A program made the position numbers and the translations under genes. From Bactericera cockerelli (taxonomy: Eukaryota; Arthropoda; Insecta; Hemiptera; Triozidae), in NCBI GenBank assembly GCA_024516035.1, contig JAMCCL010000053.1, positions 62,001-126,000 of the forward strand: a DNA stretch of 64,000 bases, written 5' to 3'. Within the stretch, counting starts at the first letter, position 1, and each line of letters opens with the position of its first letter. Shown one piece after another: positions 9,201 through 25,900 of this stretch. The notes under the pieces were generated by a model. It made no database searches, was not told where the DNA came from, and saw only the letters and a program-made list of their open reading frames with translations.

Positions 9201-12200
9201 ATTTTCCCTATAAAGAGAGGTAAATTTAACCTGGAAAATAATCTTTTGTACCCAGGATCAACTGCATAATATATGTATATTATTTAAATAGATGTTTGCA
9301 CATGTTGAATCAGTTGAATATTTATGTCTTCAGTTCAGATTCTTTTTCTTATTACTATCATAATATCATATTAGGCTTTATTAGGTAAGACAAAATATAT
9401 ACAGTCAAATACAATGAAATTATAAAGAAAAATAAATAGATTGAACAAAAGAAACAAGAACAAAAAAGAGAATAAAGCTAATGTCCTACCTAAAGGGCGA
9501 GGTTATTGCCTGTGGCAATCTCTTCCAACCAACCCTTTGTTGGAAGATGGAAGAAAAAAGTTTCTTACTTTTTTCATATAATTTATAGATAGTAATCGTA
9601 AATAATTTATGAATGTCGAGTTTCGTAAAGCTTGCAAATTACATACCATCATCTGAAGTTCACGTTAATATCACAGATGCACGTGGTATGTACGTACAAG
9701 GAAATACTTAATCACGTGACTCAGACGCTTAGCTAATGACCACCAGAACGTCTTTTCCTTCACGATTTCATTATTAAATCCGAGTTACAGTATCTTGTTT
9801 TTTCCTCTCAGTCTATAATTTCCGCATTATCTCAAAGGATCTTCTTTTATCCCTATCCTAATCTGTACGTACTGTTTTTTGTATAAGTAGTGGTAAAGAA
9901 GTTTAATTCTTTAACACGGGTTTCTTTGCGTTTCAAGCTGATTTTTTTAAAATAACCTTCTTGATTATTTTTTTAAGTTCAGAAGTTAGTTTTTTTAAAA
10001 GTTTAAACATTTTTTTTTTCTCTTTTAAATTAATAAAAATATCAAGTTCCGCACAGTGAGAATCATGGTTTTCAAGTGGAGGCTTTTTGGTCCATAGTCG
10101 ATTTATTTATATCTAACCATCATTTTTGATTGTATGGTCTCAGCCCTAAGCAATATGTTTGGAAAATATACTCTCGTGCTAGTTATCTCAGTGCTGAGTG
10201 CCGAGATTTTTGGTGGTGCAGAGAATTCATGGTCCTCCTCCTCCCAGTGGTCTTTCTCTGGAAACTGGCCCCCGGGAAAACAGCAAGGAAACAGCCAGAA
10301 TGGTAAGTTTTTTATACAGTGACACACGATTTTTTTTTGTGTAAATCTGATAGCTGTGTAGACGTTAGTCGAAAAAAAATTGAAATCGGAGCAAAGAAAT
10401 ATTTTTTTTTACAAACACGAACATAATATTTCCGATTTCTAATATTAGAAATAGGTCAAAATAAAATACGTTTTTGCAATACCTCTGTGGTGCGAAGTCA
10501 CGGATTGCGTACTGTGTAAGATAGGAAAACTGACGCTTAGCAATGACATCAGTTATAGAATTTGTCTATTAATTTCGTCCTTAATCTTGTCGAACTGAAG
10601 TAAAGGATTGGTTTAATTTTTCTCTCAATGTTTCTTTTTTTCAAGCACCCATTTTCAACCACGACCAACTACTGTCACTCATTTCCAATTCCGATCGACC
10701 GACATTCAACTCCAACCATCGGCCGGTGCGACAGCCCCAGTTACTTCAGGCTCTAGCACAACATGTCAACAATCAAAACCGACCTTTTGATGGTAGACTT
10801 GAACACGTCAATAATCAATTCCAACAGTTGAATTCTCAGGTGCTTGAGTTCACCAATCAGTTGCTCCAGTTCGGGAATCGCAGCCCAAATCCTGATAACC
10901 GCGGCAAAAACCAAATACGACCACCTCCGAATCAAGTACAGCAACTTGACTCAAGTAACAACAATCAAGGGCAAAGATTCGACAGTCAAGGGCAACGATT
11001 TGACAATCAAGGGCAGCAATTCGACAATCAAGGTCAACGATTCGATAATCAAGGTCAAAGATTCGATAATCAGGGGAAACAATTCGAAAATCAAGGGCAA
11101 AGATTCGACAATCAAGGACAACAATTCGACAATCAAGGGCAACGATTTGACAATCAGGGGCAACGATTTGACAAACAAGGGCAACGATTCGACAACCAAG
11201 GGAAACAATTCGACAATCAAGGTCAACGATTCGATAATCAAGGTCAACGATTTGATAATCAAGGAAACAATTCGACAATCAAGGGCAACGATTTGACAAT
11301 CAAGGAAACAATTCGACAATCAAGGTCAACGATTCGACAATCAAGGTCAAAGATTCGATAATCAAGGAAACAATTCGAAAATCAAGGGCAAAGATTCGAC
11401 AAACAAGGACAACGATTTGACAATCAAGGGAAACAATTCGACAATCAAGGTGAACGATTTAACAATCAAGGACAACAATTCGACAGTCAAGGTCAACGAT
11501 TCGATAATCAAGGGAAACAATTCGACAATCAAGGGCAACAATTTGACCTTCGAGGATCACAGTTTGACAAGCCACAAATCAAAAACCAAGAGCCACAATT
11601 TAACAATGAAGAACCAAAATTCAACATACAAGAGCCACAATTTAACAATGAAGAACCAAAATTCAACATACAAGAGCCACAATTGAACAATCAAGAATCA
11701 CAATTTAACAATCAAGAACCACAGTTCAACAATCAAGAGTCTCAGTTCGACAACAAAGACTCAAATGGTGAGTTACCACAGTCGGATAATCGTGATCCAC
11801 AATCAATCAATCTAAGACGACAGACAAGCAATGGATTTCGACAACCGGCCAATCAAAGACGACAAGTGGAGAGTCCAAGAGAAAAACCAACCAATCAAAG
11901 ACAGTCATTCAGTCGGGTGCCAGAGGAAGTTGACGATCGTCCGGTGTGGGGTGGCCATGGGGAGCAGGAGAAAACAAGAAAATTGCTGATCCAAAATTCA
12001 AGTCGAAACTAACGACATCTAGCGGCGAAGAAGAACAACCACGAGCTAATCCGGCTTCAATCGGAGATGAGGAAGGGGATCTTTATGTTCCACCTAGCAT
12101 GCGAGATTTTGTGAAAACTCGGAGTATGAAACGTAAGTTCAGTCAGCAATGAGATGCGTTTATGATATTCCAAGTATCTATAGACATTTCTTGAACTAAT

Positions 12201-15200
12201 TTACTATCAAAACTTTTGTAAAATGCTTCTTGGTATCAAGAGTGATAGAATATTGTAACACTGCACAGCTTAGAAATCGAAAGTAACCACTACTTATATG
12301 CATGAACAAGTCACTAACTCTACACCATACTTTTGATACTGTTTAGTTACAGATATTTGACATTTCGGATTGGGTATAGTAAGATAACTTTGTGCTTATC
12401 AGATTGTCTTAGCCTTTGCGAATTCAAAATGGCGCTGTCCAAACTCCGCGGATTGTCAAGAGGATATCCTTCAGCCGCGGGAGGGACAGACACCTTACTG
12501 CACGAATTTCCTCACATGGTAGGACAAACCACGCCTGATTTCAGTCACGACATTCTGCACATACGTTTTATCAAGTGACCATAAGATTTTAGTTGAAAGA
12601 GACGAGAAGAGAATTTCTGTCTATTAATTTGGACCAAAAATTTTAATTAAAAAAATAATACATAAAATATATAGTTAAGGGAGTTTTCGAAGGTCAAATT
12701 CAATAGAAAAAACAGGGATCACAAATTCAAGTCAGAACTTACATTTCTCCCTCTAAAACAATATGAAAAATCTATACTTAGGGTGGAACAAATAGACTTT
12801 TTGTAATACCTCTGTGGCGCTAAGTCACGGATTGCGTACTGTGTGAGATAGGGTAAACTGACGCTTAGCAATGATTTGTCTAATAATTTCGCCACTCATA
12901 ACAGAAACTTATGTCCATAGAGGTATTACAAATAGGTGTGTCTCATAATCTCACCTAAAAAATTGGACAAAATCCAACACTGACATTGGGAAGGACGCAG
13001 AACTTTTTCAATTGTAATAGAAAACAGTTATAAAACTTATGAAATACAGGATTCTTAAAATACTCATTAGTCTCTTGTAGGTAATTTTTCAACTTTGATA
13101 TACTGCGCTGTGAGGAAATTCGTGCAAAAGTGACACTATTATACTCTATGCCCTATTAGACTTCAGACTCTCATTTCAAATGTATTGCCACAAGAGCAAG
13201 CAGATAAATACGCCTGCTACGCGCTGCTAATGGGCTTTTGGTCAGCACCAAATTTTCTTTTGAAAAAAAAAACATGGACTCTCTTGTACTCCTCAGATTG
13301 TAGAAGATACTGCAAGTTTCCGTACGGGGTTCCTGCAGTATCGGGGGGTTCCGACGCTCATCTACATGAATTTCCTCACATGGTAAGACCGATAAGCCCG
13401 CTGTGGGGTAATAATAAATCCTTGTTTTCTCAGAAAGGTTTCTTTTACTCTGTCTTATACCGCTTGAACGGGGTCGACGTTTCTGGTCAGTTTCTTCGAG
13501 TACATTCGATTTTGTACATCGCGGCTGGTCTCCACTCATTTTCTCTCATGTGCTCCAAAACACAATTTTTCCACGATTTCTTAGGTCTTCCTCTCCTCTC
13601 TTTTACAAAGGCAGGTTTTAGTCAAGCTGACATCACTCTTGTTATGAACACACAATCAACAAAGTTTTTATCAATTTATATTACAATAGGTAAAAATGAT
13701 ATGGGTACAACGTGAAAAAAAGGCATTCATGTTTTTCCTTTCGAAAAAAGGTGTTTAATAATGAAATAATATAAAATTAAATTCAAATTTACCTGTTCTA
13801 GTTGGAATTGGGTGAACATTGTCATGCAGATAAAAATGACTTCCTTTGCAGCAGGAAGACTATTGTTAGCTGGTTTATTGCAAGTTTGTAGCTTTTTTAC
13901 AGAATATTTCTGCAGGTTAAATGTATCATGTGAGGAAATTCATGTAGCAAGTGAATGCGGCATTTGTCAGACACAGGTATTATCAATTTCAAAACCCTTT
14001 TTTCAACTCTTAGGGTGGAATTATGAAACATGATTAACTATCGAAGTGGACACTATCACTTAACTTAGGCTATAGTGACCTGTGATTGGTTAAAATCTCC
14101 ACTAGATTGCGTTCTAAGGGATAGTGTCCAGAACTTACATTTACCCCTTTAAAACAATATACAAAATCTATACTTAGGGTGGAACTAATAGACTTTTTGT
14201 AATACCTCTGTGGCGCTAAGTCACGGATTGCGTACTGTGTGAGATAGGGTAAACTGACGCTTAGCAATGACTTGTGATATGGAATTTGTCTAATAATTTC
14301 GCCATTAATAACAGAAACTTATGTCCATAGAGGTATTACAAATAGGTGTTTCTCATAATTTCACCTAAAAAATTGGACAATATCCAACACTGACATTGGG
14401 AAGGACGCAGAACTTTTTCAATTGTAATAGAAAACAGTTATAAAACTTATGAAATACAGGATTCTTAAAAATCTCATTAGTCTCTTGTAGGTAATTTTTC
14501 AACTTTGATATACTGCGCTGTGAGGAAATTCGTGCAAAAGTGACACTATTATACTCTATGCCCTATTAGACTTCAGACTCTCATTTCAAATGTATTGCCA
14601 CAAGAGCAAGCAGATAAATATGCCTGCTACGCGCTGCTAATGGGCTCTTGTTCAGCACCAAATTTTCTTTTGAAAAAAAAAAAACATGCACTCTCTTGTA
14701 CTCCTCAGATTGTAGAAGATACTGCAAGTTTCCGTACGGGGTTTTTCTTGCATCGGGGGGTTCCGACGCTCATCTACATGAATTTCCTCACATGGTAAGA
14801 CCGATAAGCCCGCTGTGGGGTAATAATAAATTCTTGTTTTCTCAGTAAGGTTTCTTTTACTCTGTCTTATACCGCTTAAACGGGGTCGACGTTTCTGGTC
14901 AGTTTCTTCCAGTACATTCGATTTTGTACATCGCGGCTGGTCTCCACTCATTTTCTCTCATGTGCTCCAAAACACAATTTTTCCACGATTTCTTAGGTCT
15001 TCCTCTCCTCTCTTTTACAAAGGCAGGTTTTAGTCAAGCTGACATCACTCTTGTGATGAACACACAATCAACAAACTTTTTATCAATTTATATTACAATA
15101 GGTAAAAATGATATGGCTACAACATGAAAAAAAAGGCATTCATGTTTTTCCTTTCGAAAAAAGGTGTTTAATAATGAAATAATATAAAATTAAATTCAAA

Positions 15201-16423
15201 TTTACCTGTTCTAGTTAAAAATGAGTTCCTTTGCAGCAGGAAGACTATTGTTAGCTGGTTTATTGCAAGTTTGTAGCTTTTTTACAGAATATTTCTGCAG
15301 GTTAAATGTATCATGTGAGGAAATCTGGAAATTCATGTAGCAAGTGAATGCGGCATTTGTCAGACAAAGATATTATCAATTTCAAAACCCTTTTTTCAAC
15401 TCTTAGGGTCGAATAATGAAACATGATTAACTATCGAAGTGGACACTATCACTTAACTTAGGCTATAGTGACCTGTAATTAGTTAAAATTTCCACTAGAT
15501 TGCGTGCTAAGGGATAGTGTCCACTTGGATTAAATAATACTGTTTCATGATTCGGTCCGTAGTCCTACAGACAGACCTCAGCTTAGTCAATAAGACGGGG
15601 AAATCCTAGCCCAGAGGTCAGTGGTTCGATTTCCAAGTACAGCAGAAAATTATCACTAGAGTGATTAACACAAATATGATAACTTTTTTCGACTGCTTGC
15701 CTTGCAGATTGTCTGAGCTACTGTCGTTACCCCGCCGGCGGTGTAGGTTTTGCTTCGGGTGGTCAAAATGCGCGCTTACACGAATTTCCTCACATGGTAA
15801 GAGTTTTCTACACGCTTACTCCAACAAGAACCCGGGTTCAATATCCGGTGACGTCAAAATCTTTTGCTTATTTCCTTGTCATGGTAAGATAGAATAAAAT
15901 GTAAATGCCTTTGGCCTTAAGTGGCAAAGAAATGGATAGGAGTAAGGAGTACATATACGTGGTACCTGAGTAGACTTTTTTTTGCATTATGGCCTCCGTA
16001 GCAATAGGATTTCACTGAAGAGAAGGAGGAGAGGATGGATGAAGAGAATATCCAGATTTTGTGGAAGAGCACTGTCAGGAAGAAATTATTGATTTATAGG
16101 TGACACAAGTTACCAGTTTTTGTGGTGTAACGATTGTGACGCCCGTAGTCAAGAGATCCTGAGTTCGATTCCCGGAATTTTGAAATAATCCTCTCACCAT
16201 GTACGAGCCAATGAAAAATAAATAAATTATAACAAAGGAGCCATGTTATGACCGTTTAATTAAGAGATACCTTATATTTAGCTCCTTTTGTGGTGAGGAA
16301 ATTCGTGTAGCGAACGGATACGTAATTACTTTCCTCAGTCAAGAATTTAGATTGAGAAAGAGAAAAAATATTCTGAAGGCCTATTTACTAAATATGATCA
16401 AATCTCTATCATTAAGACATTCC

Positions 16424-16464
<41 letters not shown>

Positions 16465-19400
16465 GTCAATGGTTTAATAAATTACTAAAACATGGAAAAT
16501 CTCTATCAAAGAACTTGATTCTGTGCCTTACAGAATGTCTGAGCAACTGCGTCTTTCCCAACGCTGTGCCTTACGTTTATGGTGGGAAGAATGTTCGCCC
16601 ACACGAATTTCCTCACATGGTAAGAGTTTCTACACAGAGAACCCGGTTCGATATCCGGCAACGTCAATATATTTATCTGTCAATTTTTTTGACTGTCTAT
16701 GAATTCGATTTTTAATGTCTAACAGTAAGTGTTTATTTTAGATATTTTGTTAGAAAAGTGACCCTATTCATTTATCAGTAAATTGTAAAATATTTATCCT
16801 ATAAAATCTGTAAGACTTGCTCGACTGCTGGAGTAAAGGGACTTTTCAGTCTTACCTCGGCAGTATAAACAAGGTATATTCTATTCTATATTCAAGTTCA
16901 CCTGTATTTCTATATTTATGTATTTTAATATTATTATTACATACATATTTTAAATAAATAAAAAAAAAATCTTTATTTTCAGGCAGCTCTAGGGTTTGGT
17001 TCGGGCAGTTTTCAGGGACGATCACTTGTGGCTTGGAATAACTGCGGAGGCACTCTCATAAGAAGGACTACGTCCTCACAGCTGCTCATTGCTTGGATAG
17101 CGATATGTAAGCGCCTTTTTTTTTCTTTCCTTTAAAATTACTTCTTTTGGAAGTAAAAATTTTACTTTCTTTTTTTTGGAAATTAGGAGTTTAGGAACTA
17201 GAGGCCCTTTTTTTCAGCAAGCGGTTAGTTTTTTGTGGGATTTTTTGGCTACCTATCACTGAGAGGCACAATCAGAGTAACGCAAGCTGATTTTACCATT
17301 TTAACGCCAAAGTATTTCCATGCGACATTCATACAACCACCAAACTTTTTCAAAACCTTAATTTTCAGGGGTCCCCCCACTCAAGTTCGAATCGGAGAAC
17401 ATGATCTAGCCGACGCGATGAAAGTGCGTCTCTACCACAAGACTTCCCCATCCTGAGGATCGTTGTTCATCCCGGGTACGAGCCTAAGAAGTCTCTCTAC
17501 AACGACATAGCTCTGCTACAGGTACTTACTATGAAAAAGGCTCTTGTCTGGAAATCCAGGTAGAATACAAGAGCCCAATGGAAAAAAAAAAATAATTTAA
17601 TAATACTAATATTGATTTATGTATTCTGCCCGACTAGGACTAATCTAATAGGCCCCAATATTCCAGCAGTAAGCTCAATATGTATTATTATATGGTCAAA
17701 ATCCCAAATGAAAAGATAACTCGTCATGAGGACATGTCTGCGTTTTGAACCCGCGACTTCTGGATTACCAAAAACAACACCTGGACCACTGAGTTATCTA
17801 CTATTATAACCTGGACATAATAGTAATAAAGTAATAGGTAATCTAACAAGGGCAAAGAGTAATATAATAAAGCTTTTAAGCCCAGAACTTTAATGCAGTG
17901 TCACTATTTTCGTGATGTCTTGGGACACACGCCTCCTGGTTACAAATCTGCTGCCTTATCAATCAAGCTATTGAGGGCGGTGTATAGGAAAAAAGATGAT
18001 TGAGAAGACAGGGAACACACAATCAATGAGTCACCTAGTAGCAAAAATAAGCATGACAATCCAGAGAGGTAATGCTGCCAGCGTGTTGGGAGCATTGCCA
18101 TCAGAACAATTGACATCCATATTCTATCTGTAAATTTTAATAAAATATATATATGTATATATAAAAAAAAAATATTTTTACATTACAGCTCGTGGGTCAG
18201 TGAACTTCACCCAGCACATGCGCCCGGCGTGTCTACACAACGGCAATGTGGTGAGGGACGAAAACATGAGGGCGATCAGGGAGCCCACTGCAGGGGTAGC
18301 CACCGGGTGGGGCAACACTGGCTTTGGTAAGACATAGGCCCGCCATACTAGGATTTGAGAACACTGGCTTTGGTAAGACATAGGCCCACCATACTAGGAT
18401 TTGAGAACACTGGCTTTGGTAAGACATAGGCCCACCATACTAGGATTTGAGAACACTGGCTTTGGTAAGACATAGGCCCACCATACTAGGATTTGAGCAC
18501 ACTGGCTTTGGTAAGACATAGGCCCACCATACTAGGATTTGAGCACACTGGCTTTGGTAAGACATAGGCCCACCATACTAGGATTTGAGCACACTGGCTT
18601 TGGTAAGACATAGGCCCACCATACTAGGATTTGAGCACACTGGCTTTGGTAAGACATAGGCCCACCATACTAGGATTTGAGCACACTGGCTTTGGTAAGA
18701 CATAGGCCCACCATACTAGGATTTGAGCACACTGGCTTTGGTAAGACATAGGCAAACCATACTAGGATTTGAGCACACTGGCTTTGGTAAGACATAGGCC
18801 ACACCATACTAGGATTTGAGCACACTGGCTTTGGTAAGACATAGGCCCACCATACTAGGATTTGAGCACACTGGCTTTGGTAAGACATAGGCCCACCATA
18901 CTAGGATTTGAGCACACTGGCTTTGGTAAGACATAGGCCCACCATACTAGGATTTGAGCACACTGGCTTTGGTAAGACATAGGCCCACCATACTAGGATT
19001 TGAGCACACTGGCTTTGGTAAGACATAGGCCCACCATACTAGGATTTGAGCACAGGTTTGGGTAACACTGGACCTTTGGTAAGACATAGGCCCACCATAC
19101 TAGGATTTGAGCAAAGGTTTGGGTAACACTGGCTTTGGTAAGACTTATGCAAACTATACTGGGATTTGAGCACAGGTTTGGGTAACACTAGCTTTGGTAA
19201 GACATAGGCCCACCATACTAAGATTTGAGCACAGGTTTGGGTAACACCGGCTTTGGTAAGACATTGGCCCACCATACTAGGATTTGAGCACAGGTTTGGA
19301 TAACACTGTCTTTGGTAAGACATAGGCCCACCATACTAAGATTTGAGCACATGTTTGTGTAACACTGTCTTTGGTAAGACATATGCAAACTATACTAAGA

Positions 19401-22346
19401 TTTGAGCACAGGTTTGGGTAACACTGTCCTTGGTAAGACATATACAAACCATACTAAGATTTGAGCACAGGTTTGGGTAACACTAGCTTTGGTAAGACCT
19501 AGACTCACCACATACTAGGGCAGCTTAAGCCATAACCAGATGGTTTTGAGAAAAAATTATGCGATTGCGGCGCACTATTAGATACTGGTAAAGATACTCA
19601 CTTGCCATGCGGAAGGTCCAAGGTTCGAATCCCAGTGCTGGCAAAAAAATCGTATTCAAAATTTGATCACAGTTGTTGGTAAGGGAGTCAGCACTGTAAT
19701 GGGAACTATTGTGTCACTTCTCGACCATCAGAAGGGAGGCATACAACGGAATGGGCAAACTATAACACAGACCACAAGCGTCTACAGTATCTGCAGTTTC
19801 ATGGCTGTGAAATACTTCTTTTTTCTTAGCTGATATTTAACTACATATTAATCGCCATGGCCGACCGCTCGGACCAGCTGAAGGGTTGGGTGGAAGAGAT
19901 TGCCATAGGCAATAACCCCGCCCTTTAGTTAGGACATATGTATATATTTTGTTTATTTTTTCTTGTTTATATTATTAATGTTGTTAATTTTTATATTTAA
20001 TTTTTACCATTTTTTGTTTGTATATATTTTCTACTAATAAAGAGTTTCTAAATAAATAAATGATCAAAATTGGTTCATTTAGCCATACCACTTGTCAGCG
20101 CTCTAGGCTTGCATGCACAGTAACTTGTGTTTGAATCCCTGCAGCACAGAATTTTTTTTTTTTTTTTGCTGTGAATTTGCATTTTTGGCGTCCACTAATA
20201 CCTCATGAAAAATGAGTAGCTATTTGTATGAAGGAATACAAATAGATGTTAGGGAATGATGAAATTGTAATGCTGAGCTACCCACTAGAGTTGTGACATG
20301 TGTAATAAGTATTAACTTAAAAAAACCATATTCTACATTGAAAAATTAAGTCTATTTATTTCGGTATTTGTCTTTTTTTTTAAGATGAGTGTTTCACAGC
20401 CGTTTTTATTTCGTAGTCATGAAACAGGAGCTACTTACTGTAGACGCTTTTGGTCTGAGTTGTAGCCTACCCATCCCGTAGTATACCTCCCCTCTGATGG
20501 GCGAGAAGTGACACAATACTTCCGAATTAGGTGCTGGGTCAACACGAGCGCACCGGAAGGTATCCCTTACAAACAATTGTAACCAAATTAAGAATACAAA
20601 TTTTTGTCGGCACGGGGGATCGAACCCGGGACCTTCCGCACGGCAAGCGAGTGCTTAACCACTGAGCTAATAGCGCGCTGTTTTTTTTTTTTTTTTTCTA
20701 TTTGAACATCTATCTGAATTCTAGTGGACGCCCCAAGTGATATCCTTCAGAAGGTGGACCTGGATATCATAGACACTCCAACCTGTCAGCGATATGTCAA
20801 AGCAGACCAGTTCATTCCATCCGGAGTACAGGGTGACTCACAAGTGTGTGCGGGGGTCCTAGCTGGAGGCAGGGACACTTGTCAAGTAAGAACAATCACT
20901 CAAAAAAACTACCATAGAAAAAAAGGACCAAGTTCTGGAGCTCCTATTTCTCTTATTAAAAACTGTTTTCAGAGTTCCTTATTTTGTACGTCAATATTGT
21001 ATACACTTGCCCATAAAAAATAATTGGCTTTCCATTATTGCTATACATATTTAGATTTTTACTAAATTGGTTATAAATTCTTAAACAATTTTTTTCCTAT
21101 TTGTTTTATATGATGGAATACTATTTTTTTTCTACATTATACATTTTAAATACATAGTAAACACAGTATTTCTCCTCTTCAATAAGCAATATACTTTGTA
21201 GTATGTACTTAAAAGACAAAGGAAAGTACTAAAACCAATTTTTTTTATATATTCTTCTTCTTTATGCTGGGTGGCACAGTAATTCACACAGATGATTATT
21301 TTTTTTCAGGGTGATTCTGGGGGACCACTACAAGTGAACCACACCGTGTTTGACCCCATACGAGAGTGCCCCATGGAAATAGTCGGCATCACCTCATTTG
21401 GGAAAATCTGTTCCGAAGCAAACTCTCCCGGTGTGTACACAAGGGTGGCTCACTATGTGCCATGGATTGAGGATATTGTATGGCCAAGAAAATCCAAATA
21501 ACTTCAGAATAGCTAATGAAATAGATTAGTTTAATTCATAATACCTCATATATTTAATATTAATTCTCAGAAGTAAAAGAAACCCACTTCAGGACTGCTC
21601 AGTGATTTAGTTGGGACTCAAAATAAAAACTTATATACTTTTGAATATAAATTAAACATGTCATTAATAGCCTTGTAATTTTTTAGTAACCAGTATTATC
21701 AGTGGTCATTTCTCAAATAAATAATGAAAAAATGCTAGACAGACTGGGCTCTCAATATGAGGATACCTCATTTTTAACTACTACCCAACAAACCCCATGC
21801 AATTAATTATAAATTATAATTAAAATATATTTACAAAAAACTTACCCCAATTCCAAAAAATTTGGGCAGACCCTTCACAATAATTTTGAACACCTCAGAT
21901 GTGAAATCTCCACGCTTGCTGTAAGCATAGGCCTCTTTATCTTGCTCCTTTTTATCATCTTCCTTCCTCTTTCCTTCTTCTATTTTATCGGTCTCGTCCT
22001 TCTTTTCTTCTTCTTTTTTCTCTGCCTCATCCTTTTTTTCTTCTTTTTTCTCTGCCTCAGCTATCTTCTCTTCTTTAATCTTCTTTTCTCCTTGATTGTT
22101 CCCAGCTGTTTCCTCTTCATTCAGAGTTTCATCAAGTTTTCTCTTTCGGTCTCCATTTGTTTCCTCTGAATTGGAAACATTAGGAGCAACTGTTGTGTCA
22201 GTTTCATTTGTACTGACTGACAGAGTGTCTGTCAAATTGGTTTGATTTACATTGTCAACTTTTTCAGTTTTTATTGTGACATCGGCTTGATTTTCAGTGT
22301 CTGCCATGATCAAGCTTTTTAGGATACTGAGTGTTACACAAGTTAT
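1..22346 (-). CDS. TRMT2A: TRMT2A, tRNA (uracil-5-)-methyltransferase homolog A (gene span, C-terminus outside window)
   Basis: The enzyme family transfers methyl from S-adenosylmethionine to U54 of tRNA, giving m5U in the T-loop. Seven coding exons on the minus strand join in compatible phases: 21846-22307, 7012-7224, 6488-6615, 5793-5985, 2609-2860, 1630-1762 and 1-223. In order they encode a charged Lys/Glu-rich N-terminus, an RRM (KIIVKGLPKFFGIG, then VFVTFYDEET and LDGYCYKGKKL), a linker with TTVPLWNVPYEEQ, the family motif YRNKCEFSIG, VGFRYGKYSDG, and the start of the methyltransferase fold with FFQVNTGACV and the SAM-binding motif DVCSGVGTIGL. The catalytic Cys region should lie to the left of the window. 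The first coding intron is about 14.6 kb and contains an entire serine protease gene on the opposite strand. One exon (6488-6615) is one base short. Identification rests on several family motifs in the right order and is secure. Confidence 0.93.
281..712. repeat. Tandem repeat, about 69-bp unit, six copies
   Basis: Six near-identical copies of a unit containing cttcagtggcgggatacat and aatgttgatcacagg, differing mainly in A-run length. The array ends about 60 nt from the acceptor of the TRMT2A exon at 223. Short frames here are artefacts of the repeat. Confidence 0.92.
1131..1400 (+). repeat. Interspersed repeat, 'agccagcttggctacagctg' family
   Basis: A dispersed repeat with a hairpin-forming core (agccagcttggctacagctg). 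Related copies lie at 39028-39290 and, inverted, at 31155-31395 and 6310-6400. It ends with alternating phrases seen in other copies (ctgtttatagtcctc, gtctggctggggg). No coding capacity. Confidence 0.75.
1630..1762 (-). CDS. TRMT2A: TRMT2A exon, GFDPQNFTKEQL
   Basis: The exon begins GFDPQNFTKEQLDVVRAELK after the acceptor ccccacag and ends IHFQLMPR before a gtagag donor. It is 133 nt and in phase with both neighbours. Confidence 0.9.
1828..1946. repeat. Tandem repeat, about 29-bp AT-rich unit, about four copies
   Basis: The phrase acaatattaaaatacaaac recurs with a short catcatt linker. Confidence 0.85.
2044..2240 (+). repeat. Interspersed repeat, 'gaacgatggcagccagacag' family, copy 1
   Basis: It matches, in inverted orientation, 3203-3425 on the other side of the TRMT2A exon at 2609-2860, and in direct orientation 39530-39720. 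Shared phrases include cactgtctttacaaggag and ctaataattgacaaggg. A transcript could fold the two flanking copies around the exon. Confidence 0.8.
2609..2860 (-). CDS. TRMT2A: TRMT2A exon, VGFRYGKYSDG region
   Basis: It encodes LHPRTKEIT, VGFRYGKYSDGSVYIGC and then GHWKLLMSRYSD, which match the TRMT2A central region (GFRLG..., GHWK...). It is 252 nt with acceptor cgcctccag and donor gtgagt, and its phases fit both neighbours. GC content is clearly higher than in the surrounding introns. Confidence 0.92.
2870..2920. repeat. ATG/ATA trinucleotide microsatellite
   Basis: A run of (ATG)n passing into (ATA)n immediately upstream of a TRMT2A acceptor. Confidence 0.9.
3203..3425 (-). repeat. Same repeat family, inverted copy 2
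   Basis: Reverse complement of the 2044-2240 repeat, with a short tandem extension (gtctggctgggggactataa repeated) on its left side. Confidence 0.8.
3766..4034. mobile_element. Palindromic MITE, about 270 bp
   Basis: The ends are inverted repeats of more than 40 bp: aacactctttagtagaagg and gcgaggttaatgct at the left recur inverted at the right with few differences. No open frame. The AT-rich flanks make the target duplication ambiguous. Confidence 0.75.
4045..4335. repeat. Two-copy tandem repeat, about 139-bp unit
   Basis: Two nearly identical blocks each start aactcctcattctncctaag and end taaagcggtacctaa plus an A-run. The start shares its first bases with the intron side of the nearby decoy donors, so this may be an older arm of the same array. 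Confidence 0.8.
4338..5468 (-). repeat. Array of five partial copies of the 3' end and splice donor of the TRMT2A exon at 5793
   Basis: Copies at about 4340-4405, 4440-4502, 5180-5237, 5274-5335 and 5367-5432 each hold roughly the last 50 coding nt (REGYRNKCEFSIG in frame), the gtgagaatgagga donor and about 20-30 nt of intron, separated by a TTATTA-rich spacer. They lie downstream of the real exon in gene sense, lack an acceptor, and are interrupted by a TTAA-flanked element (4516-5163). A SINE (5469-5778) separates the array from its parent exon. Confidence 0.9.
4516..5163. mobile_element. TTAA-flanked nonautonomous element (piggyBac-like MITE)
   Basis: The ends are inverted (ccccTgaaggtaccat versus ccccttaaagtaccgt) and both sides abut TTAA, the piggyBac target. 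The interior carries five copies of a short palindrome of the form CTGAWATWTCAG. It has no transposase. It sits inside the decoy array, so it is younger than the array. Confidence 0.7.
5469..5778 (+). mobile_element. tRNA-derived SINE (family 1)
   Basis: A tRNA-like head has an A box (ttagctcagtgg) and B box (ggttcgatccc) around a loop reading ttgccat. A body of about 230 bp follows (gtgtcacttcttgcccatca, gggatgggcaggctacaaca) with an A-rich tail. Related copies occur at 19562, 20381 (minus) and 32428, and degraded at 49620 and 51405. The 3' body and dispersed copies make this a SINE, not a working tRNA gene. Confidence 0.88.
5793..5985 (-). CDS. TRMT2A: TRMT2A exon with YRNKCEFSIG
   Basis: The acceptor ggatttcag leads into LEMKMEDARKQIHQMV, and the exon ends with the conserved YRNKCEFSIG followed by a gtgagaatg donor. 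It is 193 nt, phase 0 to 1, and joins the next exon (GLHPRTKEIT) cleanly. Both edges of this exon have been copied: the donor side into a five-copy array on its downstream side (4340-5468), and the acceptor side once upstream (6168-6217). Confidence 0.92.
5986..6310. repeat. Acceptor duplication and MITE-like insertions upstream of a TRMT2A exon
   Basis: In gene sense, about 50 bp ending in the real acceptor (tcgctggatttcag then CTGGAGATG) is repeated at 6168-6217, giving a decoy acceptor followed by CTGGAAATG. Between and beyond the copies lie A-rich sequence and two copies of a small palindrome (gatttctaatattagaaat) also found near 3855, 10430 and 29440. Confidence 0.75.
6444..6487 (-). repeat. 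44-bp tandem duplication of exon end plus donor
   Basis: The last 30 nt of the TRMT2A exon at 6488-6615 and the first 14 nt of its intron are repeated once, creating a second identical CAG|gtaatatta donor 44 bp downstream. Because 44 is not a multiple of 3, use of the second donor changes the frame. Confidence 0.92.
6488..6615 (-). CDS. TRMT2A: TRMT2A exon, linker between RRM and methyltransferase region (one base short)
   Basis: The acceptor gctttcag opens a frame reading KANALPDP, plausible as the tail of the RRM region. The far end must read TTVPLWNVPYEEQ to match the family and join LEMKMEDARK in the next exon, and these two frames disagree. The exon is 128 nt where neighbouring phases require a multiple of 3, so one base is missing. 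The best candidate is the A-run near 6575. The last 30 nt plus donor are duplicated just downstream (6444-6487). Confidence 0.82.
6760..6945 (-). mobile_element. tRNA-like SINE (family 2)
   Basis: On the minus strand a tRNA-like head (gtagctccgtggtaaagg, B box near 6875) is followed by a body with tgggatttttaccacataat. Related copies are at 17615-17815 and, degraded, at 46030-46190, 56080-56240, 56450-56540 and 57300-57400. Confidence 0.72.
7012..7224 (-). CDS. TRMT2A: TRMT2A exon, RRM core
   Basis: A tctcccag acceptor precedes EIRKHFEALINARVCKVIPL. The exon continues through an Arg/Asn-rich loop into VFVTFYDEETRTQALSKLDG, the RNP1-like strand of the RRM, and ends GKKLRAV with a gtgagt donor. 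It is 213 nt, phase 0 at both ends. The intron before it is the one that hosts the protease gene. Confidence 0.9.
7560..8027. repeat. tRNA-like fragment and first arm of a direct repeat
   Basis: 7600-7670 reads on the minus strand as a decayed tRNA-like head. 7818-8027 is repeated almost unchanged at 8078-8270 (shared ctggaggtcggaggttcaag and gtaattgtgatatcacgat). Confidence 0.6.
8029..8590. mobile_element. Nonautonomous DNA transposon with 37-bp inverted ends
   Basis: The terminal repeats are perfect for about 37 bp (aatctaatgcctgtgatatc... at the left, inverted at the right). Each contains an internal palindrome, atctcacagcctgtgagat. No transposase frame. The second arm of the 7818-8027 direct repeat lies inside it. 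Confidence 0.78.
8591..10133. other. TRMT2A intron and upstream region of the protease gene
   Basis: Mostly AT-rich sequence without coding signal. 9400-9560 is the inverted 3' end of a non-LTR element (gggcgaggttattgcctgtg) also seen at 19850-20060 and 30420-30540. The last few hundred bases upstream of 10134 should contain the protease promoter. No convincing TATA box or initiator was picked out. Confidence 0.5.
10134..10302 (+). CDS. Protease exon 1, signal peptide
   Basis: Reads MVSALSNMFGKYTLVLVISV and continues LSAEIFGG, a hydrophobic core with a likely cleavage near the Ala/Gly residues, then a Ser/Trp-rich stretch. A second ATG at 10155 would give a more compact signal peptide and could be the true start. 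Donor gtaagt; ends in phase 1. Confidence 0.85.
10134..21501 (+). CDS. Secreted S1A serine protease with repeat-rich prodomain and five alternative activation exons (gene span)
   Basis: A complete chymotrypsin-fold protease gene nested antisense in TRMT2A intron 1. Order: signal peptide exon (10134-10302), long Gln/Asn-rich exon (10646-12132), five alternative activation exons (12403-12518, 13297-13382, 14709-14794, 15708-15796, 16534-16619), then common catalytic exons 16983-17106, 17369-17521, 18189-18326, 20725-20885 and 21310-21501. The triad is visible: His in VLTAAHC, Asp in YNDIALLQ, Ser in GDSGGPL. Asp six residues before the Ser (DTCQGDSGG) predicts cleavage after Arg or Lys. The C-terminus VPWIEDIVWP is typical of insect hemolymph proteases related to snake and persephone; no clip domain is recognisable. 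Three catalytic exons are each one base short and exon 2 nets one short, so the window copy does not translate straight through; I attribute this to sequence error. AATAAA occurs near 21620 and 21716. Confidence 0.9.
10646..12132 (+). CDS. Protease exon 2, low-complexity [Q-G-Q-R/K-F-D-N]n prodomain
   Basis: A polypyrimidine acceptor precedes APIFNHDQLLSLIS. After about 100 residues a heptad-length repeat begins (QGQRFDN with R/K and Q variation), running for about 40 copies and drifting into NNQEPQF/FNIQEPQ units. A Gly/Asn/Arg-rich tail follows, ending VPPSMRDFVKTRSMK before a gtaagt donor. The repeat frame slips at three copies that read caaggaaac where the others read caagggaaac, and the frames agree again after the third. 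One further base is missing near 11950-11990. Repeat number may also be misassembled. The repeat is hydrophilic and resembles an extended spacer or adhesive region; no enzymatic domain is seen. Confidence 0.82.
12403..12518 (+). CDS. Alternative activation exon A
   Basis: 116 nt, acceptor ttatcag, donor gtagga; phase 1 in, phase 0 out. After the split codon it encodes HCLSLCEFKM, a longer basic insert than its siblings, then RGYPSAAGGTD and HEFPHM. The Gly-Gly pair aligns with chymotrypsin residues 18-19, so predicted P1 is Ser (S|AAGG). It has the CxxxC pair shared by all five alternatives. Confidence 0.82.
13109..13126 (-). promoter_or_regulatory. Antisense pairing element a', complementary to end of exon A
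   Basis: 18 nt perfectly complementary to 12499-12516 inside exon A (core gaggaaattcgtgca). It matches A rather than B-E at the distinguishing bases. Flanking sequence is unrelated to the exon, so it is a short isolated antisense copy. Confidence 0.72.
13297..13382 (+). CDS. Alternative activation exon B
   Basis: 86 nt, acceptor cctcag, donor gtaaga. It encodes HCRRYCKFPYGVPAVSGG then SDAHLHEFPHM; predicted cleavage is A|VSGG. It lies in the first copy of a 1.39-kb tandem duplication. The surrounding intron happens to stay open in the same frame, but that is not coding evidence. Confidence 0.85.
13927..13947 (-). promoter_or_regulatory. Antisense pairing element b', complementary to end of exon B
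   Basis: 21 nt perfectly complementary to 13362-13382, ending at the last base of exon B. It has the exon-B-specific catgtag form. Confidence 0.76.
14519..14536 (-). promoter_or_regulatory. Antisense pairing element a'', duplicate of a'
   Basis: Identical to 13109-13126 and carried here by the 1.39-kb tandem duplication. Still complementary to exon A, not B or C. Confidence 0.68.
14709..14794 (+). CDS. Alternative activation exon C (duplicate of B)
   Basis: 86 nt, in the second copy of the 1.39-kb duplication. It is almost identical to exon B except at the activation site, where GVPAVSGG has become GVFLASGG, moving predicted P1 from Ala to Leu. Nearly all the coding change between the two copies is at the cleavage site. 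Confidence 0.85.
15312..15340 (-). promoter_or_regulatory. Antisense pairing element c', complementary to end of exon C with 8-nt insertion
   Basis: The same 21 nt as b' but split by an 8-nt insertion (a local duplication of aaat/ggaaa sequence). Pairing with 14774-14794 would leave a bulge. Confidence 0.68.
15590..16200 (+). repeat. tRNA-like SINE fragments around exon D
   Basis: Fragments resembling tRNA B boxes (gtggttcgattt at about 15632, gagttcgattcc at about 16170) lie in the introns flanking exon D, outside the exon itself. Confidence 0.45.
15708..15796 (+). CDS. Alternative activation exon D
   Basis: 89 nt, acceptor cttgcag, donor gtaaga. It encodes HCLSYCRYPAGGVGFASGG then QNARLHEFPHM; predicted cleavage is F|ASGG. 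Confidence 0.85.
16293..16309 (-). promoter_or_regulatory. Antisense pairing element d', complementary to end of exon D
   Basis: 17 nt perfectly complementary to 15777-15793 in exon D, extendable by several pairs past a one-base bulge. It has the D-specific form cgtgta. 16 of the 17 also match exon E. Confidence 0.7.
16425..16460. repeat. Poly-C / poly-T run
   Basis: A (C)n(T)n homopolymer tract upstream of exon E. Length is unreliable. Confidence 0.85.
16534..16619 (+). CDS. Alternative activation exon E (closest to the catalytic exons)
   Basis: 86 nt, acceptor cttacag, donor gtaaga. It encodes QCLSNCVFPNAVPYVYGG then KNVRPHEFPHM; predicted cleavage is Y|VYGG. It is the only alternative with no antisense exon-end copy in the intron after it, so it may be the default choice. 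Confidence 0.86.
16983..17106 (+). CDS. Protease catalytic exon with His (VLTAAHC)
   Basis: Opens AALGFGSGSFQGRSLVAWNN then CGGTLI. The frame must shift to reach DYVLTAAHCLDSDM, the His57 motif. Length 124 nt versus the 125 that phases demand, so one base is missing at ataagaagg. It joins HEFPHM of any alternative exon. Confidence 0.86.
17369..17521 (+). CDS. Protease catalytic exon with Asp (NDIALLQ)
   Basis: Begins GPPTQVRIGEHDLADAMKVR. After one missing base in cacaagactt it continues DFPILRIVVHPGYEPKKSLY then NDIALLQ, the Asp102 motif. 153 nt where 154 are expected. Confidence 0.86.
17615..17815 (-). mobile_element. SINE family 2 copy
   Basis: Same body as 6760-6945 in the same orientation, with a decayed tRNA-like head near 17745-17810. 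Confidence 0.65.
18189..18326 (+). CDS. Protease catalytic exon, RPACL...ATGWGNTGFG
   Basis: Encodes RGSVNFTQHMRPACLHNGNV and later AGVATGWGNTGFG, the conserved segment before the 140s loop. One base is missing at the start (ctcgtggg; a Leu-Arg pair is expected). Its last bases and donor founded the array that follows. Confidence 0.87.
18309..19510 (+). repeat. 24-copy array of exon end plus splice donor
   Basis: The real exon end actggctttG|gtaagacat is followed by 23 more copies of the same junction. The 16 nearest the exon repeat every 46 bp almost perfectly. The next eight have a period of about 59 bp, are more diverged, and include a longer piece of exon (ggtttgggtaacactgg). Frames on the minus strand (repeats of SYQSQC and YVLPKPV) are by-products. 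Confidence 0.95.
19562..19820 (+). mobile_element. SINE family 1 copy
   Basis: Shares with 5469-5778 the tRNA-like head (cttgccatgcggaaggtcc) and the body (gtgtcacttctcgaccatca). Older and diverged. Confidence 0.8.
19840..20060 (+). mobile_element. 3' end of a non-LTR retrotransposon
   Basis: Ends with a short frame MADRSDQLKGWVEEIAIGNN followed by a stop and an AT-rich tail ending in A/T repeats. The same tail recurs inverted at 9400-9560 and 30420-30540. Truncated, no reverse transcriptase here. Confidence 0.65.
20381..20682 (-). mobile_element. SINE family 1 copy, next to a protease acceptor
   Basis: Full-length inverted copy with intact B box (gggttcgatccc on the minus strand). A T-run at 20682-20699 joins it to the intron end. 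The acceptor of the next protease exon is only about 25 bp further on. Confidence 0.88.
20725..20885 (+). CDS. Protease catalytic exon, VDLDIIDTPTC...GRDTCQ
   Basis: Encodes DAPSDILQKVDLDIIDTPTC and later SQVCAGVLAGGRDTCQ. The Asp of DTCQ is residue 189, predicting Arg/Lys specificity. 161 nt, phase 1 in and 0 out, no indel. Confidence 0.92.
21310..21501 (+). CDS. Protease last exon with catalytic Ser (GDSGGPL)
   Basis: GDSGGPLQVNHTVFDP, then VGITSFGKICSEANSPGVYT and the C-terminal VPWIEDIVWPRKSK followed by TAA. Gly216 and Gly226 positions are intact, consistent with a trypsin-like pocket. Confidence 0.95.
   Translation, partial: GDSGGPLQVNHTVFDPIRECPMEIVGITSFGKICSEANSPGVYTRVAHYVPWIEDIVWPRKSK
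21846..22346 (-). CDS. TRMT2A: TRMT2A first coding exon, charged N-terminus and start of RRM
   Basis: The chosen ATG is 22305-22307 (MADTENQAD). The reading frame continues upstream to another ATG, but an acceptor (ctttacag) ends at 22347, so 22308-22346 is 5' UTR. Residues 15 to about 125 are low complexity and rich in Lys, Glu and Asp, probably disordered. The exon ends with the first RRM strand (FKIIVKGLPKFFGIG), and a gtaag donor follows at 21845. It ends in phase 0, as the next exon at 7224 requires. Confidence 0.9.
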
Positions 22347-22962: not shown

Positions 22963-25900
22963 CTATTCAGCTTCTGGTTCTTCAGGTTTGGCCACTGGTG
23001 GGTGATTTTTCTTAGTAGAAAGATGGGGCTTTTCTTTGCTGATGGCACGAGATCTTAATTCTTCTTCAATAGCTTTATTCACGTTCTTGGAAATAGTTTT
23101 TTGTATTTTGACTGACTCAAGATTTTTGTTCTTTTTAGCTTGAATTGGGCGGTCTGCAGAATATGAAAAATAAAAAAATCATTTTACTATTAATTTATTA
23201 TACTACCCTATTTCAAGAAAGAGTAGTCACCTCATGTGTATTTCTAATACTTCAGGTAGGTACTCATGAAAAGTTAATCAACAATCAAACTTACAAGGAA
23301 CCAACCTTACTAACAAATACTAACTATTAATTATTAGGCTTTAAGTATCATCTCACAAGGATTAAAACCAAACCAAAGATTATATTAGTCTCACTGTATC
23401 AGAAATAGAATGTCATCTGAAAAGGTGGCTGAAGACTGGCCATTTGAAATAAAATGGAGAGTTAAACTCTTACTTTCCTAAATTGTGATTCTCAAGGGTT
23501 TTTAAGGGCAAAATTGGTATCACAAGTTGGGACTTTAAGGTTTTCTCTTTAAACTGTAATAAATTGTAGATATGTAGCCATGAAATACATAAGACCTGTT
23601 TGACTGCAGGAGTAAAGGGACTTCTCAATTTTACCTCAGCAGAATAAAAAAGTTATATTCAATTCTATTTTATTAAAGCATTGGTTTAATATAAAACAAT
23701 GCCCAAAATCTAGACTTGAATATACTGAGGATTAACAAAACCAATAAATTTAATAATTTGGCCCTAAAAACACAAAATTGAGGGCACAATTGATACTCTA
23801 TGGACTTAGGTCTACATTAAGGAAGAATTAATAGACGTTTCTGTAATAACTCTGTGGTGCTAAGTCATGGATTGCGTATAGTGTAAGATAGGGAACACCA
23901 ACACTTGGCAATAACTTGTGATATAGAATTTTTATATTAATTTTGCCCTTTGATTATAGTTTTAGGACAAAATTAATAGACGTTTTGGTAATACCTCTGT
24001 GGTGCTAAGTCACAGATTGCGTACTGTGTAAACCAACACTTAGCTATGACTTACACTACCGGTCAAAAGTTTGGGTACAGCTATGTTTTTTTCAGTTTCT
24101 TCCCTATTGAGGAGTGAAAGGTCATTGAAATCACCACAGAGCCATCATGACTGAAAGTTCATGTTCTTATCTATTAAATAAATTTAAATTACTCCATACA
24201 TATGAAGTACATGTACATAAACCTACTGAAATTGACCCTTGTTAATGTATAGCTGTACACATGAGACTGCATGTTTGTTTATACCTACAGTTTGTAGGTA
24301 CATTTTAGGCATAGGTATCTATATTCGGATTATATTTTGTTATGAGTGATACCTCTGATATTATTTTAGTGTCAGATAAGTGGTTGAAAGTGATTCATTG
24401 TGTTGATTTTAAGTTGAAAGTCAAGCGTTCCAATTTGCGTCAAGTGTCTAAGTAAAGTGCCTAATTTTTTTTATAAAAGTGTTAAAATAGCTCCTTATTG
24501 TCAAATTTCAATGGAAAAGAGATCTGCCATAGTAGCATTGTGCAAAGCTGGGCATTCTCTGCGGGAAATTGCATCTCTTCAACGTGTCTCACTGCATGGT
24601 GTTCAAAAAACCTTGCAGCGTAATGAAGAACGCGGAACTTTGAGTGACCTCCCAAGAAGTGGTAGGCCAAAATGCACTTCCAAACAAGAAGACAAATTCG
24701 TCCGGGTCACATCCAAGCGAGATCGCTTTAAAACAGCGACTCAAATTCGTTCTGAGCTGCTTGAAATGAGAACTGCTGATGTTTCAGTTTCTACCGTCCA
24801 AAGGCGTCTTTGTGATGCTGGTCTCAAAGGCTGTGTGGCAGCAAAAAAACCTTTGCTGCGGCCTATAAATAAAAGAAAAAGACTAGCATGGGCCAAGAAA
24901 CACAGCAACTGGTCACAGGACCAATGGAAACGTGTTCTCTTCACTGATGAGTCCAAGTTTGAAGTCGGATCCAAAAGGAGAAAATTCGTTCGGCGTGCAG
25001 CGGAGGAAACGCATGCTTCCTGCCTGTGTGCAGCCTACGGTGAAGCATGGAGGTGGTTCCCTCATGGTGTGGCGTTGTTTTGGAGGCAATTCAGTGGGAG
25101 ACATTGTTCGTATCAATGGAATAATGGACTCCAAAGTGTACCATGGCATCCTGGTGCGGCATTTGGTACCATCTGGACTGAGACTTATCGGCCGTGGATT
25201 TGTCTTACAGCAGGATAACGACCCTAAACATGCCTCAAAATTGTGCAGAGACTATGTAGCCAAAAAAGAGGGTGAAAATATACTGCAAAATATGATCTGG
25301 CCTCCTCAAAGCTCCGACTCTAACCCTATAGAGTTGCTTTGGGATCACGTGGACCGTTGTGTACGCCAGCAGCACATAACCAGTCAGAATCACTTGTGGG
25401 AGGTGATACAAGAGCAGTGGAGAGCGGTTGGCGAAGAAACCCTGAAAAAACTTCTTGAAAGGATGCCGCGAATATGCCAAGCAATAATCCGTGCAAAAGG
25501 GGGTTATTTCGATGAAAAGAATGTTTGAGCAATTGTAATGAAAAAACAATGTTAAATATCATAAATATATTGTCTACAAAAACTTAAAGATTTTATTTTT
25601 CATTTCTAATATTTTTTATTCTTTTAAGAAGCTTTAAAAATTTATTTTGTGAGGAAACTTTTCAAATTTTGAGGTGTACCCAAACTTTTGACCGGTAGTG
25701 TAAGTTATCAATGTTGTCTATTAATTTGCTTTTAAATGGAGAAACTAATGCTTAAGTTTGTAATACCTCTGTGGCACTAAGTCATGGATTGTGTTCTGTG
25801 TAAGATAAGGAAAACTGATGTTAAGCGATGTCTTAAGTTATCTATTTTGTCTATTAACTTCGTTCTTAGACTTAAGTCCACAAAGGCATAACAAAAGTGT

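Follow-up and report, generated by a model that had tools for sequence, protein, structure and literature searches.

The window analyzed here is a 64,000-nt stretch of the Bactericera cockerelli genome (565 Mb in 1032 contigs) corresponding to C517:62001-126000; unless stated otherwise, positions are those of the window. It contains a gene whose product has a trypsin domain (PF00089; 3.3e-56, Pfam) and, in translation, the motifs TAAHC, NDIALL, and GDSGGP, which carry the catalytic His, Asp, and Ser. Judged by its best matches, which include insect proteins named "serine protease snake," this is a gene for a snake-type serine protease. Its closest protein relatives come from the psyllids Cyamophila, Diaphorina, and Cacopsylla (51-54% identity), and Pfam detected no clip domain in two of the relatives, P0003 and P0005. 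A role of the protease in immunity is a guess from its family.

The same locus is found on the opposite strand of C11 (10.357-10.362 Mb), with a main block at 12656-17116, spanning the exons, that is 96% alike. We infer that C517 is an alternative haplotype of the chromosomal C11. In the window allele, the reading frame of the upstream exon (11900-12012) stops at 12012, and the exon that begins AALGF (16984-17107) has a one-base gap relative to C11; C11 is open at both places. These faults mark either a broken allele or an assembly error. The upstream coding repeat FDNQGQR (10585-12012) is present in many copies, and their number differs between the alleles. Further along the same gene, at 18315-19510, lies a minisatellite with 16.1 copies of a 46-nt unit and 8.5 copies of a 59-nt unit. 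Its unit repeats the end of the exon ..NTGFG, including the GTAAGA donor, so that a series of copies of this donor seems to come after the exon. Elsewhere in the window, two overlapping frames at 24418-25528 resemble a Tc1/mariner transposase. The region from 40000 to 64000 is unlike the first 40 kb: its GC skew stays positive throughout (0.05-0.41), and it contains homopolymer runs and lysine-rich repeats. It possibly consists of poorly assembled repeats.

The central part of the gene is an array of five alternative exons, followed by a common exon:

12403..12518, plus strand: alternative exon A, 116 nt, ends HEFPHM with donor GTAGGA
13297..13382, plus strand: alternative exon B, 86 nt, ends HEFPHM with donor GTAAGA
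14709..14794, plus strand: alternative exon C, 86 nt, tandem duplicate of B, ends HEFPHM with donor
15708..15796, plus strand: alternative exon D, 89 nt, ends HEFPHM with donor GTAAGA
16534..16619, plus strand: alternative exon E, 86 nt, ends HEFPHM with donor GTAAGA
16984..17107, plus strand: common downstream exon, begins AALGF, holds the catalytic-His motif TAAHC

Exons A to E each encode a Cys-containing linker, then an activation site, then HEFPHM, after which the protein continues into the common exon. All five are 2 mod 3 nt in length. With a single base left over from the upstream exon and a downstream exon that opens on a codon, the frame is kept when one (or four) of the five exons is included. 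When D or E is added as a second exon, translation reads into an early stop. In having tandem homologous exons, splice sites, and a frame kept by one (or four), the array has the makeup of a cluster of mutually exclusive exons. Arrays of the same kind were found in psyllid relatives, where the Diaphorina P0002 model strings together three exon ends and Cyamophila P0001 two; P0003, a contig of 1277 nt that probably derives from RNA, and P0005 have one exon end each. In the Cacopsylla P0004 protein record, two exon ends stand one after the other, an argument against strict exclusivity in that species.

Alignment with plasmin places the mature N terminus of the exon E isoform at the V of VYGG. 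When this was read across to the other exons by eye, the predicted cleavage sites (marked by a slash) were S/AAGG in A, A/VSGG in B, L/ASGG in C, F/ASGG in D, and Y/VYGG in E. The exons are thus predicted, from their translations, to swap the activation site of the zymogen. Between exons B and C there are six differences in 86 nt. All are confined to a single stretch of 8 nt and together change three neighboring residues at the predicted scissile bond, a sign of either selection or very short conversion. A search of the open-access literature, covering titles and the starts of abstracts, found nothing on alternative activation-site exons in proteases, which is not proof of absence.

Each of the four inter-exon introns contains antisense copies of exon ends:

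13109..13126, plus strand: antisense element A, exact complement of the exon A end (18/18)
13924..13947, plus strand: antisense element B, 24 bp with the exon B end, reaching donor position +3 and including one G.U; 21 nt exact
14519..14536, plus strand: antisense element A', second copy matching exon A (18/18), tandem copy of element A
15309..15340, plus strand: antisense element C, interrupted in this allele by 8 inserted nt; unbroken in C11
16293..16310, plus strand: antisense element D, exact with exon D at 17/17 (16293-16309) and with exon E over 16 nt

The longest exact antisense match between an exon and its own downstream intron was 18 nt for A, 21 nt for B, 14 nt for C, 17 nt for D, and 6 nt for E, and no set of 60 shuffled introns yielded a match longer than 12 nt. 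Element C matches exactly over 14 nt in this allele and over 21 nt in C11. An earlier, sequence-only reading of this DNA had described such copies after each of exons A to D. This held for A, B, D, and the extra copy at 14519, which are exact or near exact, but only in part for C, whose copy is broken by the 8-nt insertion in this allele. That reading had element B pair up to the last base of its exon; the pairing reaches this base but goes further, into the donor. Its estimate of the spans, about 500-600 nt, agrees with the measured distances from exon to element of 591, 542, 515, and 497 nt for A to D, respectively. Element D also lies 224 nt upstream of exon E. In the intron before A and the intron after E, there was no antisense match of at least 14 nt, the cut for reporting. 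The motifs AG/GT found shortly upstream of elements A and B (13079-13082 and 13914-13917) resemble zero-length exons or decoy splice sites and may be due to chance.

The 15-mer GTGAGGAAATTCRTG occurs in nine exact copies on the two strands of the window, which correspond to the five exon ends and four elements. Genome-wide, it has 35 exact matches: 9 at this locus, 9 in its C11 copy, and 17 elsewhere. Two of these 17 are the exon end of the two copies of a gene on C4 (see below), and the other 15 are located in unrelated sequences, mostly repeated ones. The shuffling maximum of 12 nt together with the 15-mer distribution rules out a chance origin of the antisense matches, and the distribution of the 35 genome-wide matches does not support a dispersed repeat as their source. 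None of 4227 Rfam families matched 12000-17200 at the gathering score. The same kind of literature search, of open-access titles and abstract starts, returned nothing on antisense copies of exon ends in introns, again not proof of absence.

All five constitutive exon ends of the same gene had antisense matches of 8 nt or less. A second comparison is offered by a snake-like paralogue on another chromosome, C4, where its two copies are separated by 335 kb (L023 4000-6200 and L024 3400-5700). It has an array with three exon ends of the HEFPHM type, the middle of which reads HEFPHA and may have decayed. Antisense matches were 10 nt or less at all six exon ends, leaving this array without elements. 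The three exons on C4 are probably also alternative, and an element-free array implies that alternative exons of this kind do not need elements. By eye, the protease exons of the C4 paralogue look closer to the Diaphorina protein than those of the window gene do. Two further relatives are located on C7.

The exon ends at the window locus are closely alike at the nucleotide level. Over their final 18 nt, exons A, B, D, and E agree at 17-18 of 18 positions, as opposed to 9-17 of 27 positions (33-63%) in the 27 nt just upstream. The codons for E, F, P, and the second H are identical in all of A to E. Calculated from the gene's own codon use and assuming free drift of synonymous sites, the probability of this identity is about 7e-5 for four independent exons, or 0.0015 for three, with D and E counted as one. 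The C4 exons vary in their EFPH codons (GAATTCCCTCAT, GAATTTCCTCAC, GAGTTTCCCCAT or CAC). Synonymous identity thus appears to go with the presence of elements, a comparison of one array with one; exon-to-exon gene conversion is another possible cause.

An exon and an intronic complement are also the layout of known A-to-I editing sites. The antisense copies might accordingly serve as exon-complementary sequences that form double-stranded RNA for the editing of exon ends, a function that would likewise conserve synonymous bases. However, the helices are near perfect, and HEFPHM is invariant in all five exons, and we regard editing as very improbable.

The evolutionary record of the elements is complicated by a 1.4-kb tandem duplication, which gave rise to exons B and C as well as elements A and A' (outside the exon, 35 of 1282 aligned sites are substituted, compared with the 6 of 86 nt within it). 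Because of this single event, B/C and A/A' are not independent, and three independent elements are left. Two columns change on both sides between elements: in the His codon, C/T in the exon is accompanied by G/A in the element, and just before this codon, G/A in the exon is accompanied by C/T in the element. The claim that the elements covary with their own exons is borne out by these two double-sided columns. The pattern is thin, however, since with three independent elements the permutation chance of own-exon matching is 1/6, so that covariation alone is weak, and element D energetically favors E and A. Elements B and D share a 35-nt stretch at 77% identity (anchored p of 0.005 ungapped and 0.045 gapped; best of three pairs). 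In a comparison of 3' flanks for common ancestry of the elements, this pair alone, one of three, was suggestive. If the 35-nt stretch reflects homology, the His-codon difference between B and D is a paired change that followed duplication.

Own-exon matching and the two double-sided changes would also be expected from copying alone. The elements may be functionless relics of inverted copying of exon ends during the growth of the array or of gene conversion between exon and element, and the 1.4-kb duplication shows that the region rearranges. When flanks were anchored at the core, 2 of 12 comparisons between element flanks and exon bodies fell below 0.05 (A-A, p of 0.013; D-E, p of 0.033), indicating slight similarity beyond the core; copying therefore remains a candidate origin. 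No p below 0.1 came out of the 12 unanchored comparisons, which looked for whole exons copied in inverted orientation. Against copying, the element cores are alike and most of their flanks are not, the same exon end would have had to be inverted in small pieces several times over, landing each time about 500-600 nt past its exon, and exon-end codons are conserved only where elements exist. On balance, we consider functionless relics of copying rather unlikely, but they are the main rival to a role in pairing. A short element with 29-nt inverted ends (83% complementarity) lies in both copies of the duplicated unit, at 12797-12935 and 14193-14345; similar stretches are present elsewhere in the locus, and the element is perhaps a MITE.

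All of the antisense elements are present in both alleles, and the differences amount to the one 8-nt insertion in C and one lost terminal pair in the D element of C11. Exon D itself has a T-to-C change between alleles opposite a G in the element, converting U.G to C-G. Between the alleles, the elements carry a single substitution over 102 aligned sites, along with 8 gap columns. The corresponding counts are 1 in 102 for the exon ends, 90 in 3985 for the introns, and 37 in 705 for the D intron outside its element, numbers that have no power for a selection test. The allele comparison thus gives no proof of selection, as copying without function would have it.

Folding of the pre-mRNA, which the earlier reading had proposed as a check, favored the expected helices, although in silico folding of 500-nt loops says little about living cells. 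In folds of an exon with its intron, the mean pairing probability of the exon's own helix was 0.99 for A, 0.99 for B, and 0.96 for D. In the minimum-energy fold of the whole cluster, A, B, and C pair with their own elements, D pairs with A', and E pairs with element D, leaving all five exon ends paired. The predicted helices are 16-24 bp long; they cover the donor through position +3 in B and C and end 2 nt (A) or 3 nt (D) before the exon end. Pairing beyond the core was found in 5 of 24 flank tests at <0.05, uncorrected (both flanks of B-B, 0.040 and 0.028; B-D, 0.035; B-E, 0.033; D-E, 0.037).

In the RNAduplex rankings, elements A and A' preferred exon A, and elements B and C preferred exons B/C. 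Element D of C517 ranked E first (-45.5), followed by A (-42.8) and then B, C, and D (-40.6); for its C11 counterpart, the values were -45.0 for A and E, -41.8 for D, and -38.8 for B and C. When D and E were folded together, element D paired with E (0.993) over D (0.001). The two exons thus compete for element D in silico. Exon E had been proposed as the default exon for want of an element. It does lack one downstream, its longest match there being 6 nt, but element D, located between the two exons, is predicted to pair with E no less well than with D, and the duplex ranking and joint fold argue against E as an element-free default.

The most likely reading of these observations is that the elements act as RNA locks, which would base-pair with the 3' ends of exons A to E, mask their donors, and so help to make splicing mutually exclusive. 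From the sequence evidence, we put the chances of this reading at about even. Pairing of an element with an exon end would hide the donor and make the exon end poorly visible to the U1 snRNP. Since the elements of A to D are located about 500-600 nt after their exons, locking would compete with U1 during transcription: each element would be transcribed about 500 nt, or seconds, after its exon, and the outcome would depend on whether U1 binding or locking came first. With D and E competing for one element, E would be locked only when D does not hold element D. The transcript would keep one of five interchangeable activation-site exons, and the exon chosen would set which protease can activate the zymogen. 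A fuller proposal, in which the coding ends of the exon array are themselves the docking sites and the intronic antisense copies lock all but one, providing an immune protease with any of five activation baits, is more tentative.

Pairing could instead bridge or loop the RNA and thereby activate an exon. A study of insect mutually exclusive clusters describes long-range pairing as mostly activating (PMC6071210), and most selectors of beetle Dscam1 exon 6 are partly exonic, according to another (PMC8042237). At the psyllid locus, however, there is no single shared docking site, and the exon end itself forms one arm of each helix, which in B/C extends over the donor, so that the helix must open before the exon is used. 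A formed helix should therefore hinder its exon, most clearly in B and C, where the donor is covered, and locking is favored over bridging. The sequence-only reading had left both options open, namely, pairing that masks donors or that brings exons together. Masking is the better reading, given the codon identity, the predicted pairing, and the presence of the elements in both alleles; bringing exons together is less likely, and we consider it improbable.

If locking is true, copies of exon ends can take the place of a separate docking site in setting up a mutually exclusive choice, which would give exon duplication a simple route to creating its own control. For tests, the element-free array on C4 provides a ready-made control within the same genome.

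Repression of an exon by RNA structure is also known from chicken beta-tropomyosin exon 6B. In tau exon 10 and SMN2 exon 7, hairpins mask the donor by hiding the 5' splice site through base pairing (PMC11802352, PMC10790352). Those are local hairpins at single exons, whereas the helices predicted here span about 500 nt and are repeated along an array of exons.

Competing RNA structures between docking sites and selectors govern mutually exclusive exons in insect Dscam1, 14-3-3zeta, Mhc, and srp (PMC6071210; PMC8042237). Those systems have tandem alternative exons, long-range pairing, and competition among several partners; the psyllid array has the tandem exons and, in silico, the long-range pairing and the competition. 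In the known systems, many selectors pair with a single docking site in an intron, and the pairing promotes use of an exon. In the psyllid array, by contrast, there is an antisense copy in each inter-exon intron (elements A, A', B, C, and D over four introns), and the other arm is not intronic but the exon's own coding end. The nearest precedent found is beetle Dscam1 exon 6, in which selectors lie partly in exons (PMC8042237).

At the protein level, the array recalls two groups of proteins. If the activation site is indeed swapped by splicing, the protease mirrors those insect serpins whose reactive loops are swapped. Insect serpins of the serpin-1 type have alternative exons for the reactive loop. 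Alternative splicing of a wasp serpin is described in PMC10513286. In both cases, tandem alternative exons swap the bond attacked by a protease, as predicted for the psyllid gene; here, however, what changes is a zymogen's activation site rather than an inhibitor's loop.

Drosophila snake has a nonbasic residue before its cleavage site. The window gene likewise has a nonbasic residue before the predicted cleavage, and it shares with snake/CLIPC-type proteases the trypsin domain and the catalytic motifs. Persephone, in turn, senses microbial proteases by means of a bait region (PMC10732536), which shows that foreign proteases can be detected through a site of this kind. Unlike Persephone and the snake/CLIPC proteases, the psyllid gene has five alternative activation sites, as predicted, within one gene.
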